Assembly (NCBI GenBank): GCA_025057995.1
Contig: JANXEW010000007.1
Location: forward strand, 1 to 64,000
Reading direction: 5' to 3'
Source of the DNA: Thermofilaceae archaeon
GTDB lineage: Archaea > Thermoproteota > Thermoprotei > Thermofilales > Thermofilaceae
DNA length: 64,000 bases
Translations under genes and position numbers: made by a program
Shown here: piece after piece, positions 9,862-20,821 of the stretch
How the letters are laid out: each line of letters begins with the position of its first letter
How positions within the stretch are numbered: the stretch's first letter is position 1
The notes under the pieces: model-generated
Told to the model about the DNA's origin: nothing
What the model saw: only the letters and a program-made list of their open reading frames with translations
Database searches by the model: none

Positions 9862-9915
9862 TTGTGGTTGGAGGACCCGCAAAGGATTTTTCTGGCTGGG
9901 TCCCAAGCCCATCAC

Positions 9916-11271
9916 GTGAAAGAGGTATTTAACGTAGTCGTGGTCGGCGGAGGAGTGGCTGGCTTTTACACTGCTTACAACGTTGCGAAAGCCGGCTACT
10001 CCGTAGCAATTATTGAAATGAAAAATGAGGAGCAAATTGGGGAGAAGGTTTGTGGTGACGCAGTTGGCGAACACCATTTCAAAGAAGTCGGTTTAGAGCC
10101 TCCTCGAGTAGGTGTAGACGCCACTGGAGTTATAGATGGGGTTAGAGTCTTCTCGCCCAGTAGGGAACATTTCGTTACCGCATGGGGGAAAGGTTACGCG
10201 CTCGATAGGAAGGCTTTTGGAAGACGCTTACTCAAGATGGCTCTTGATTCCGGTGTTGTAGTTTTTTCCGGGCGGTCGGTAATAAAGCCCATTGTTGAGG
10301 GCAGTTGGGTTAAGGGCGTTATTACATCAGGCAACGGGGGGGAGTTGAGGGCTAAAGTGGTGGTAGACGCTACAGGAGCTGCTGCATCTCTGAGGACTAA
10401 GTTGCCCGCCGAGTGGTGGGTTTCCTACAAGGCACCTTTAGACGATTTTAACGCGGCTTATAGGGTCATCGCGACGGTCGAAGAGGATCAGGACACGCGT
10501 TTTGCTGACATTTACCTGGATGTCAATGTGGCACCGGGTGGTTACTGGTGGTGGTTCCCTAAGGGGAAACGTGCAGTCAATGTTGGATTGGGCGTTAAAG
10601 CAGGATCTGGCTCGCCAAATCCTAGGCACATGTTCGAACGACGTATAGCCCCACTTCTTGAGAAAGCTTCCGGAAAAATTCAGCATGCTGGAGGAGGCCT
10701 AGTACCCACTCGCCGACCCGTTCCCTGCGCAGTTTGGAACGGTTTTATCGCGGTTGGTGACGCTGCATACACGGCTAACCCATTGCATGGTGGCGGAATA
10801 GGTCCCGCCCTTGTTAGCAGTTATCATGCAGCTAGTCAAATAGTAAAAGCTTTAGAATCTGGTGAGGCCTCAATGGAAAGACTTTGGGCGTATCAAACAG
10901 CTTACCTCAAAGCATATGGCATAAAGCAGGCTTTGCTTGACGTAGCACGCATATATCTCCAAGGTCTCTCAAATGACGACATTGAGTTGATAATCAAAAG
11001 TGGAGTGGTTGCTGATGAGGAGTTATCGGCTATAGGTTATAGAGGTGAGCTTTTAACAAGTGTACTTTCAAAAGCCGCTTCTGTGGTTAGGATCCTAAAA
11101 CGTCCTAGTTTACTTGCAGAGCTTGCGCGCCTTAAGGGTTACTTGGATGATGCTGCCAGGCATTATGCAGCATTTCCTAAGACACCTGAAGGTTTCGAGC
11201 GTTGGAGTACAGATGTTGAAAGGTTCTACCACGCACTTAAGGAGAGATACTGGAGGAGACCCTCAGAATGA
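9916..11271 (+). CDS. Geranylgeranyl reductase family flavoprotein
   Basis: The protein begins with an FAD-binding Rossmann fold (VVVGGGVAGFYTAYNVAKAG, ending in the acidic IIEM). It has the family's CGDAVGEHHF segment and a late FAD motif, GDAAYTANPLHGGGIGPAL. Members reduce the geranylgeranyl chains of archaeal ether lipids or related isoprenoids at the membrane. The start is set at GTG 9916 because the Rossmann strand begins 8 codons later and a TATA-like box sits at 9853. An earlier GTG at 9862 would add 18 residues. The 3' end overlaps the next gene by four bases. Which lipid it reduces cannot be told. Confidence 0.88.
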   Translation: MKEVFNVVVVGGGVAGFYTAYNVAKAGYSVAIIEMKNEEQIGEKVCGDAVGEHHFKEVGLEPPRVGVDATGVIDGVRVFSPSREHFVTAWGKGYALDRKAFGRRLLKMALDSGVVVFSGRSVIKPIVEGSWVKGVITSGNGGELRAKVVVDATGAAASLRTKLPAEWWVSYKAPLDDFNAAYRVIATVEEDQDTRFADIYLDVNVAPGGYWWWFPKGKRAVNVGLGVKAGSGSPNPRHMFERRIAPLLEKASGKIQHAGGGLVPTRRPVPCAVWNGFIAVGDAAYTANPLHGGGIGPALVSSYHAASQIVKALESGEASMERLWAYQTAYLKAYGIKQALLDVARIYLQGLSNDDIELIIKSGVVADEELSAIGYRGELLTSVLSKAASVVRILKRPSLLAELARLKGYLDDAARHYAAFPKTPEGFERWSTDVERFYHALKERYWRRPSE

Positions 11272-13076
11272 GGGGCTCTCCTTTTATAGATAAGGAAGCA
11301 TACGTTGCTAAAGTATTCAGGAGTATTGGTCAAGAGCATAGGCTCAGGATAATCCTACATTTGGCTTCAAGAGGCTCGGCCTCGTTCTCGGATTTAGTTG
11401 AGGAGTTAAATATTAGCGGAGGGAAGTTAAATTTTCATTTGAGGAAATTAGTTAATTCCGGTTTGATAAAAGTTAGCCGTAAAGGGGCTTATGAATTAAC
11501 AGAGCTTGGAAAGTGGATAGTGGCTAAATTACAGGAGATGGATCGCGTAAGTGCAAGCAGTGGCGCTTTAATCGTCGATTATCGTTCTTTACCCTGCGAC
11601 GTGAACCTTGGTGATTTAGCGCGTAGTATAGAGTGTAACCGGAACGTTGCTGATATTGAAGAATTTCTAAACAGGTTGTATTTGAGGCTTTCAAAACGGT
11701 TTACAAGTATAAGCAAAGAGCTTTTGCTTATGATAACAGAAATAGAAATGTGCGAAAATGAGCCAAAACATATATGTTTACCTCTCTCGATAAAAGCACT
11801 GTTGTACAAATCGTATATTAGCAAAGAATATACGAGTTTGAAAGATATAGTTACAAGAGATCTGGCTAACTCATATGCTTTAAGCCGGCTTTCACCGCTC
11901 CTCTACGAGTATCAACTTAAGGGTTTAGTTTACGTAAAAGATCCTGTTTTCTCTATAACAGGGTCTCAACTCGTAGCTCTCTATGCGTCAAAAGGGACCG
12001 ATATTGTGAAGCTGGTTGCCCGGCTACAAGACGAATCAGCTGAAATAATGATAGTAGCCGAAGAAATAGAAAGTGATAGGTTAGAGCTATTGGATAAACT
12101 AGTTCCACCAGGAAAAGTCACTGTTGTTGTAATTGGTGGAAAGGAACCTTTACCAAGCGTTAATAGAATCGGTTTGGTGTTTCAAACTACGGGATCTTGG
12201 AGAAGCTTGCCTGCTTTTTGGCTGAAATCGGTTAATAGTTTTTCCCCTGTTTTATTAAGCAGAGGAGATAAGGTCCCAAGCATATCCTTAGCTGAAGTTC
12301 CTATGCCAGAGCCTGACGAATGTTACATTGTGCCGCTACGACTGGCGGTGTCTCTCCCTTCTCTGAAGCTTGAAGCTGAGAGAAGTGGAATGGGCAGCCA
12401 GCATATCCAAGAAAGGATAGCTAATGAGAGCGTGAAACTCTACGAGCGTTCTCCTGCCCATAAAGTAAAAGCAATCCTCAAGGATACGGTAAGGTCGATG
12501 GAAATCTTAAGACCTCAACTGGCTTTGACGGGTTTTGAAGCTGTCATGAGGATGAGCTACGGTATAATGGCTCAACCGGAGATGGTTAACAAGACAAAAA
12601 GCATTTGGAGTAAACTGTCAAAAGAGTTAGAACCAGTTGAAATTACCGGAGCCATGGCTGACGAGCGCCTTTACGCGATCGCAAAGTCTGAGTTATATAA
12701 CCCTATAAGTGTATTTGCCCTTTCATTGAAGAGGACATACGCTGAGCAAGCTCTCTTGGAGGGAACGGTTCACAATATCTTAAAAGGTGGTTCAGTTCTA
12801 GCTATAAAAGTAGGAAAATACCTTATGCCGGAAAAAGCTAACGAATTAATTACAGTAGCTGAAAGTTACGGAGTTATGCGCTTAAGTTTTCACTTAGAGC
12901 TCACTCGCTGCGAGGTATGTTCAACCGCAAGCGTGGAATGGAAAAGAATCTGTAGCATGTGTCTATCTACTAACGTAGTGCCATTAGCACGACCTCTAGA
13001 CTTATACAAACCTTGTGATACGATACCTCATGAAGTTCTTGAGGAATACAAAAAGCGACCCTATCTAGTTCCCTGA
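11268..13076 (+). CDS. ArsR-like HTH fused to a degenerate anaerobic RNR (NrdD-like) domain
   Basis: Residues 10-85 form a winged HTH (LRIILHLASRGSASFSDLVE, LNFHLRKLVNSGLIKVS). The rest resembles class III anaerobic ribonucleotide reductase. LAVSLPSLKLEAE near residue 358 matches the NrdD INLPRLAYEA strand, and LALTGFEAVMRMSYG near 417 matches the GLNEAV...TG segment. NILKGGSVLAIKVG near 502 matches the GGT..H element, and CEVC plus CSMC near 547-565 match the zinc site. The RxxGY glycyl-radical motif that should follow is missing; PLARPLDLYKP stands there. The protein is therefore probably not an active reductase. A regulator built on a nucleotide-binding pseudoenzyme is my inference. It overlaps the upstream reductase gene by four bases. 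Confidence 0.75.
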   Translation: MRGSPFIDKEAYVAKVFRSIGQEHRLRIILHLASRGSASFSDLVEELNISGGKLNFHLRKLVNSGLIKVSRKGAYELTELGKWIVAKLQEMDRVSASSGALIVDYRSLPCDVNLGDLARSIECNRNVADIEEFLNRLYLRLSKRFTSISKELLLMITEIEMCENEPKHICLPLSIKALLYKSYISKEYTSLKDIVTRDLANSYALSRLSPLLYEYQLKGLVYVKDPVFSITGSQLVALYASKGTDIVKLVARLQDESAEIMIVAEEIESDRLELLDKLVPPGKVTVVVIGGKEPLPSVNRIGLVFQTTGSWRSLPAFWLKSVNSFSPVLLSRGDKVPSISLAEVPMPEPDECYIVPLRLAVSLPSLKLEAERSGMGSQHIQERIANESVKLYERSPAHKVKAILKDTVRSMEILRPQLALTGFEAVMRMSYGIMAQPEMVNKTKSIWSKLSKELEPVEITGAMADERLYAIAKSELYNPISVFALSLKRTYAEQALLEGTVHNILKGGSVLAIKVGKYLMPEKANELITVAESYGVMRLSFHLELTRCEVCSTASVEWKRICSMCLSTNVVPLARPLDLYKPCDTIPHEVLEEYKKRPYLVP

Positions 13077-13081
13077 CTTTG

Positions 13082-13756
13082 TTAGAAAAGGGTTGCTTGG
13101 ATTCGAACTAGTTCAATACCTGTAGTTTCAAAACCTACTAAGGCTCCCTTACTATTAGCTACAATCCCACTCTTGATGAAAATATTTCCTCTGTTCACTG
13201 TGCCTATGCCACTCTTCGATACTTTCAATATTCTAGCAGCAAAGTTTACCTCGTCGTCATTAACAACCGGGCTTAGCAGTAATCCTCTGTCGTTCGCCAC
13301 ACCTAGAGCGCCGACAAGAGTTGAATGGCCAAGATTTGCTTGGACTACTTCAACGTCGAGAGCGTCTACGATCTTTTGGAGGGCATGTCTCGGTATTAGA
13401 GGACTTACGATAGCTCCCTTGTTGTTTGCCAGAATAAGGTTACCTAAAGCGTTCTCTCTCACATCCTCTAATACTTCTACCACCATTCTATCTCCAACTG
13501 ATTTCCTCGTGTGTGATACTTCCTCTTCTCTGCTCAGATTACCTAAGAGGATCCCCTTACTATTCATAACGCAGAGGATTCCGAGAAGAGGGGAATTGTT
13601 AATGGATGTTCTCACGATCTCAACATTTAAGTTACGCTTAAGAGTTTGTTCAAGCTTATCAGGGGCCTCCCACGGTATTAAAGCTATGCTATCGCTAACA
13701 GCAAGGTAAACTCCGAGATTAGGATTTCCAAACGCGTACGTTATCTCGACGCTCAA
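13082..13756 (-). CDS. eif6: Translation initiation factor aIF6
   Basis: aIF6 binds the large ribosomal subunit and prevents premature joining. The 224-residue protein shows the five-fold pseudo-repeat of the pentein fold, each unit ending in phrases such as VMNSKGILLG, ILANNKGAIVSP, VANDRGLLLSP and VANSKGALVG. The N-terminus (VEITYAFGNPNLGVYLA) is typical. It overlaps rpl31e by four bases and follows it in the L39e-L31e-aIF6 order conserved across archaea. Confidence 0.96.
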   Translation of the reverse strand: MSVEITYAFGNPNLGVYLAVSDSIALIPWEAPDKLEQTLKRNLNVEIVRTSINNSPLLGILCVMNSKGILLGNLSREEEVSHTRKSVGDRMVVEVLEDVRENALGNLILANNKGAIVSPLIPRHALQKIVDALDVEVVQANLGHSTLVGALGVANDRGLLLSPVVNDDEVNFAARILKVSKSGIGTVNRGNIFIKSGIVANSKGALVGFETTGIELVRIQATLF

Positions 13757-20735: not shown

Positions 20736-20821
20736 GCCGCGGTAGCTCAGCCTGGGAGAGCGTCCGGCTGAAGATGAAAATAGAAACCGGAAGGTTCCGG
20801 GTTCAAATCCCGGCCGCGGCA
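20736..20821 (+). tRNA. tRNA-Phe (GAA) with intron
   Basis: Acceptor GCCGCGG/CCGCGGC with discriminator A, D arm GCTC/GAGC, and T arm CCGGG-TTCAAAT-CCCGG. The anticodon stem is TCCGG/CCGGA. A 12-nt intron (20774-20785) at the canonical 37/38 site separates CTGAAG from the final loop A, giving loop CTGAAGA and anticodon GAA. The bulge-helix-bulge is relaxed: CTGA faces ATAG with only three pairs. Confidence 0.93.

Follow-up and report, generated by a model that had tools for sequence, protein, structure and literature searches.

Several known regulators are derived from enzymes: BirA, PutA and NadR combine an enzyme fold with a DNA-binding domain and retain their catalysis. To our knowledge, none of the regulators of this type is built on a ribonucleotide reductase (RNR) or glycyl-radical fold, and we know of no earlier transcription factor built on the RNR fold, so that the family described here would be the first. 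We also know of no mechanism that controls RNR expression in most archaea. In bacteria, RNR is repressed by NrdR (TIGR00244; PMC9110341), which has an N-terminal Zn-ribbon for DNA binding and an ATP-cone, and which is linked to several RNR classes; NrdR has been reported for "some archaea" as well (PMC9110341). Two further described families are close to the protein considered here, namely, the class III (anaerobic) RNR, NrdD (PF13597, TIGR02487), and the ArsR/SmtB-type winged helix-turn-helix (HTH) regulators (PF01022).

This report concerns a gene in a stretch of 64,000 nucleotides from a Thermofilaceae archaeon (assembly GCA_025057995.1, contig JANXEW010000007.1, positions 1 to 64,000), hereafter the window. 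The original prediction, made from the sequence alone, was that the gene encodes an HTH fused to an NrdD-like domain without a glycyl radical.

Results

The gene (11268..13076, + strand, ATG start) encodes a protein of 602 aa. It overlaps by 4 nt, as predicted, the gene of a geranylgeranyl reductase (GGR)-type FAD oxidoreductase (9862..11271, + strand), and the two genes are likely co-transcribed. On the other side lies the convergent aIF6 gene (13082..13756, - strand), the first of the aIF6-L31e-PDCD5-S19e cluster, which serves as a marker of orthologous loci. Of 101 related genomes searched, the nearest contain orthologs with 39-47% identity, in the conserved order Pelota-FKBP-GGR-[regulator gene]-aIF6-L31e-PDCD5-S19e; the GGR-type gene is the same-strand neighbour in the near orthologs, too.

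The protein begins with an ArsR-like winged HTH (11295..11552, + strand; residues ~10-95). For residues 21-69, both HTH_20 and HTH_5 (ArsR) score above their Pfam cut-offs (36.2 bits for PF01022 against a cut-off of 22), which bears out the predicted HTH in front of the NrdD-like body. The metalloregulator model NF033788 stays under its cut-off (46.1 bits against the 55 needed), and the HTH region contains no Cys. A degenerate ATP-cone follows (11568..11819, + strand; residues ~101-184); the order of its secondary structure elements is cone-like, but the nucleotide-binding motifs are lost, and our custom ATP-cone HMM gives -3.5 bits versus 97-145 in the canonical members of the family introduced below. 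The catalytically dead NrdD barrel (11823..12890, + strand; residues ~186-541) leads to the zinc site CEVC-x10-CSMC (12909..12962, + strand; residues 548-565), in which all four zinc cysteines of NrdD (C548, C551, C562 and C565) are kept, as expected from the CxxC...CxxC pattern noticed earlier. The next element is a remnant of the glycyl-radical loop, RPLDLY (12990..13007, + strand; residues 575-580). It aligns as R575-P-L-D578-L-Y580 with R643-I-V-G646-Y-Y648 of the true NrdD from the same genome, so that Asp578 occupies the position of the radical Gly and the reported lack of the RxxGY motif is real. The catalytic Cys of the finger loop is also absent; GDKVPSISLAEV stands there. The predicted NrdD-like order holds over the whole body, except that the counterpart of TGGxxxH was misread: it is L505-KGGSVLAI and not "EGTVH". 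Conservation among the orthologs is highest in the recognition-helix run GKLNFHL.KL and in the zinc/tail remnant; it is lowest in the cone region.

The homology to NrdD extends beyond the C-terminus. The Pfam NRDD model matches residues 462-569 with E 4.8e-6, 0.2 bits below the cut-off, and the NCBIfam NrdD models match the C-terminus with E 5.7e-9; hhalign against 12 true archaeal NrdDs covers almost the entire length (E = 2e-66). An AlphaFold2 model built from an alignment of 35 relatives (pLDDT 88.8) was compared with the PDB using Foldseek: ranks 1-24 are all class III RNRs, which come from Thermotoga maritima, Prevotella copri, Streptococcus thermophilus and phage T4 (best E 1e-12). For a family member from an ammonia oxidiser (model pLDDT 83.9), ranks 1-36 are class III RNRs (best E 6e-21). 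Foldseek and hhalign agree on the RNR/glycyl-radical-enzyme alpha/beta barrel; a fold unrelated to glycyl radical enzymes, which had been named as the outcome contradicting the prediction, was not obtained. This confirms that the window protein joins an ArsR-like winged HTH to a class III RNR body that is complete in length and catalytically dead.

The search for an active nrdD/nrdG pair, proposed together with the prediction, succeeded. On contig C11, the genome (1.8 Mb, 83 contigs) has its single full-length true NrdD (481 bits, with intact RIVGYY), which is overlapped and followed by the radical-SAM gene nrdG; no large subunit of class I or II RNR was found in it. Since the full-length NrdD-NrdG is present and a class I/II large subunit is not, the product of 11268-13076 is not the working RNR of the cell. 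Its gene is not beside nrdD. The NrdR model TIGR00244 matches neither the window protein nor anything else in the genome. As a separate observation, positions 20736-20821 of the window hold a tRNA-like gene to which ARAGORN made no assignment (two-base anticodon "ga"); it possibly contains an intron.

The same search of 101 genomes revealed many longer and more distant relatives across the phylum. In these, the HTH is followed by an ATP-cone and then by an NRDD domain of full length, with E values as low as 1e-76; the cone between the HTH and the body is intact at the sequence level, and we refer to such proteins as canonical members. A scan of genome contigs confirmed 233 encoding stretches, and almost all of the 80 best carry a Bathyarchaeia label; an earlier contig scan with the window protein alone as the query gave no match. 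Every full-length member that was aligned has an HTH. The family is wide in Thermoproteota, where lineage names are inferred by us except for Bathyarchaeia (contig titles) and ammonia oxidisers (amoA test). In the tree, a single branch (SH-aLRT 100) splits the family from true NrdDs, which is compatible with one origin; the deep placement is unsure because of long branches, and we make no finer claims. One IMG/VR (viral) contig (L266) encodes a distant relative with 23% identity.

Catalysis is lost throughout the family. The motif RxxGY is found in 32/32 true NrdDs and in 0/132 members, so that the proposed check of the glycine found no member with an intact motif; some Gly stands at the aligned radical position in 6/132. 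The finger-loop Cys-Cys is likewise present in 32/32 true NrdDs and 0/132 members, and the second Cys alone is kept in 26/132. At least 127 of the 132 members keep the four zinc cysteines. The remaining catalytic segments, whose roles were judged by the structure paper on the P. copri NrdD (PMC11226230), were scored in the cone-bearing members, 97 in number. In these, a deletion has removed the NxN flap, HxHD is altered, and nothing is kept of loop 2, PAES and the residues of the C-terminal tail. One could propose that the family is an enzyme with altered chemistry, and the finger-loop Cys kept in about a fifth of the members could be cited in favour of this; we consider it extremely improbable, as the radical Gly motif, the substrate flap, the triphosphate motif and the C-terminal tail are lost and the catalytic Cys is not conserved.

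Canonical members are under purifying selection: dN/dS is ~0.08 between two ammonia-oxidiser copies, close to the 0.055 of their nrdJ, and ~0.14 in a Bathyarchaeia pair. The group of the window protein diverges fast (45% identity to the same-genus ortholog versus 81% for NrdD), and one ammonia-oxidiser copy (G310) is split. These two facts might suggest a decaying pseudogene or a chance fusion; this explanation is scarcely credible, considering that dN/dS is well below 1 in canonical members, that the frames are intact across many families and that the zinc site and the HTH are conserved.

The family is linked to two RNR classes. Among 23 genomes of three families, 22 have the gene directly upstream of the class II gene nrdJ, on the same strand; the exception (G148) is a fragmented assembly. 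All 22 carry archaeal amoA and are therefore ammonia oxidisers. None of them has the class I beta subunit or a true NrdD, and essentially the only NRDD match in them is the regulator itself, save a 22-bit fragment in G178. The dead class III body can have no class III partner or job there. This bears on the view that the protein pairs with NrdD as its regulatory partner and is not a DNA-binding regulator: NrdDs are dimeric and the bodies are homologous, but the 22 ammonia oxidisers possess the protein without any NrdD to pair with, and all full-length members aligned have an HTH, which makes the view highly improbable.

In 13 other genomes (Bathyarchaeia loci and families f35, f43, f47 and f57), a true class III nrdD follows downstream of the gene on the same strand, directly or with an intervening glutaredoxin gene. 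Two loci of one genus (L234 and L235) share 92% identity to either side of nrdD, but nrdD itself belongs to a different subfamily and the redoxin gene is cut off after 37 codons; the enzyme was exchanged in place and the regulator retained. In Bathyarchaeia, pyrB is at most 2 genes away in 53/80 loci. No RNR gene is found beside the regulator gene in the family of the window's genome, and the linkage is also missing in some other lineages (f23, f27 and f40).

Strict co-loss of the ATP-cone in the regulator and the enzyme was considered as a rule and rejected; it holds in the window's family but fails in G070, where a weak cone remains in the regulator (44.8 bits) and the NrdD scored has none. 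Separately, true NrdD genes in four genomes occupy very long frames of 1022-2826 aa (G081:C8, G115:C1, G094:C7 and G128:C4), and their interrupted NrdD matches suggest inteins.

NrdR is absent from 46/49 Thermoproteota genomes searched. The other three (G081:C8, G136:C48 and G305:C20) have a bacterial-type NrdR alongside the native regulator; it adjoins an nrdD other than the native regulator's partner, and this nrdR-nrdD unit looks imported.

The search for operators established none. Inverted repeats upstream of RNR genes do not exceed dinucleotide shuffles. The element TACTTTC upstream of Thermofilaceae nrdD is real and conserved; however, it is also found ahead of repeated elements and of a gene resembling that of ribosomal protein LX, for which reason we rejected it as an operator and consider it a general promoter element. 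A candidate operator, GGTGTNAA-N4/5-TTGA, occurs between the regulator gene and nrdJ in several ammonia oxidisers, though not in all (loci L191, L196, L197, L198, L200, L230, L232 and L243). Besides, the promoter-like sequence TACTTTCGG...TTTATA is conserved at 21 places in G001, with similar downstream sequence in several copies; it is perhaps a mobile or repeat family.

Discussion

We presume, with a probability of roughly 0.78, that these proteins are a one-component transcription factor family of Thermoproteota, in which an ArsR-like HTH is combined with a dead duplicate of NrdD, the cone senses ATP/dATP, and the adjacent RNR gene is controlled. The family would have originated when an ArsR-like winged HTH was joined to a duplicated anaerobic RNR and catalysis was lost. 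The ATP-cone kept by canonical members would distinguish ATP from dATP, as the cones of NrdD and NrdR do; the resulting change would pass through the dimer of the dead RNR to the HTH, and the HTH would bind DNA and act on the promoter of the adjacent nrdD or nrdJ. As to the direction of control, our guess is repression at high dATP. This reading is favoured by the domain architecture and the fold, the loss of catalytic residues, the linkage to RNR genes of two classes, the exchange of nrdD beside a retained regulator, the rarity of NrdR, purifying selection, the single branch in the tree and the proximity of pyrB. Against it stand the outcome of the operator search, the missing linkage in the window's family and in f23, f27 and f40, the degenerate cone in the window's family and the unsure deep placement in the tree.

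The comparison with the described systems is as follows. Canonical members share with NrdR the ATP-cone, the linkage to several RNR classes and, by inference, the role; the nucleotide-binding motifs of the NrdR cone are present in the sequences of canonical members and lost in the window copy. The family differs in using an ArsR-like winged HTH instead of the Zn-ribbon and in having ~500 extra residues of dead RNR, and it is found mostly where NrdR is missing. With NrdD it has in common the barrel fold, the order of motifs, the C-terminal Cys4 zinc site and, in canonical members, the ATP-cone; unlike NrdD, it gained an HTH and lost the radical Gly, the catalytic Cys pair, the NxN flap, loop 2 and the C-terminal tail. 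It shares the DNA-binding domain with ArsR/SmtB-type regulators, but its sensor part is a dead RNR. The principle of an enzyme fold plus a DNA-binding domain is that of BirA, PutA and NadR, although here it is realised without catalysis. The family would act like NrdR while failing its defining architecture, and it has the NrdD fold without the catalytic features that define NrdD.

The original suggestion that a dead RNR attached to an HTH could sense nucleotides and control transcription is strongly favoured for the family by the intact cones and by the linkage to two RNR classes; the window protein itself has a degenerate cone, and its effector may or may not be a nucleotide. This protein is a derived member that kept the HTH and the zinc region while its cone degenerated. 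It is probably still a transcriptional regulator, and its targets may be its own nrdD-nrdG or the GGR operon. A possible reading, to which we assign somewhat less than an even chance, is that this copy no longer controls RNR and acts on another process, e.g., on lipid saturation through the co-directional GGR gene, or on a wider set of genes. The tight GGR adjacency in close relatives, the degenerate cone, the fast divergence noted above and the lack of an adjacent nrdD agree with it; however, the zinc/tail remnant and the recognition-helix run both persist in close orthologs, and the adjacency may reflect merely a shared promoter or autoregulation.

No published description of the family was found in the openly accessible literature searched, RNR reviews and phylogenies included. 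With good confidence, though slightly less than for the reading given at the start of this section, we propose that it is an undescribed and widespread archaeal family in which a whole dead RNR serves as the (d)NTP sensor of an HTH regulator of RNR genes of two classes. It would be the archaeal equivalent of NrdR and would have arisen from the very enzyme whose genes it regulates.

The family is a specific and testable candidate for the control of RNR in archaea, ammonia-oxidising archaea included; because in many relatives its gene directly precedes that of a functional RNR, it probably provides the switch for DNA-precursor synthesis that had been missing in archaea. In ammonia oxidisers, which are aerobes, the gene of a dead anaerobic enzyme precedes that of the class II RNR, nrdJ. 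The family is also a caution that, in aerobic archaea, genes annotated as "anaerobic RNR" can be wrongly named.
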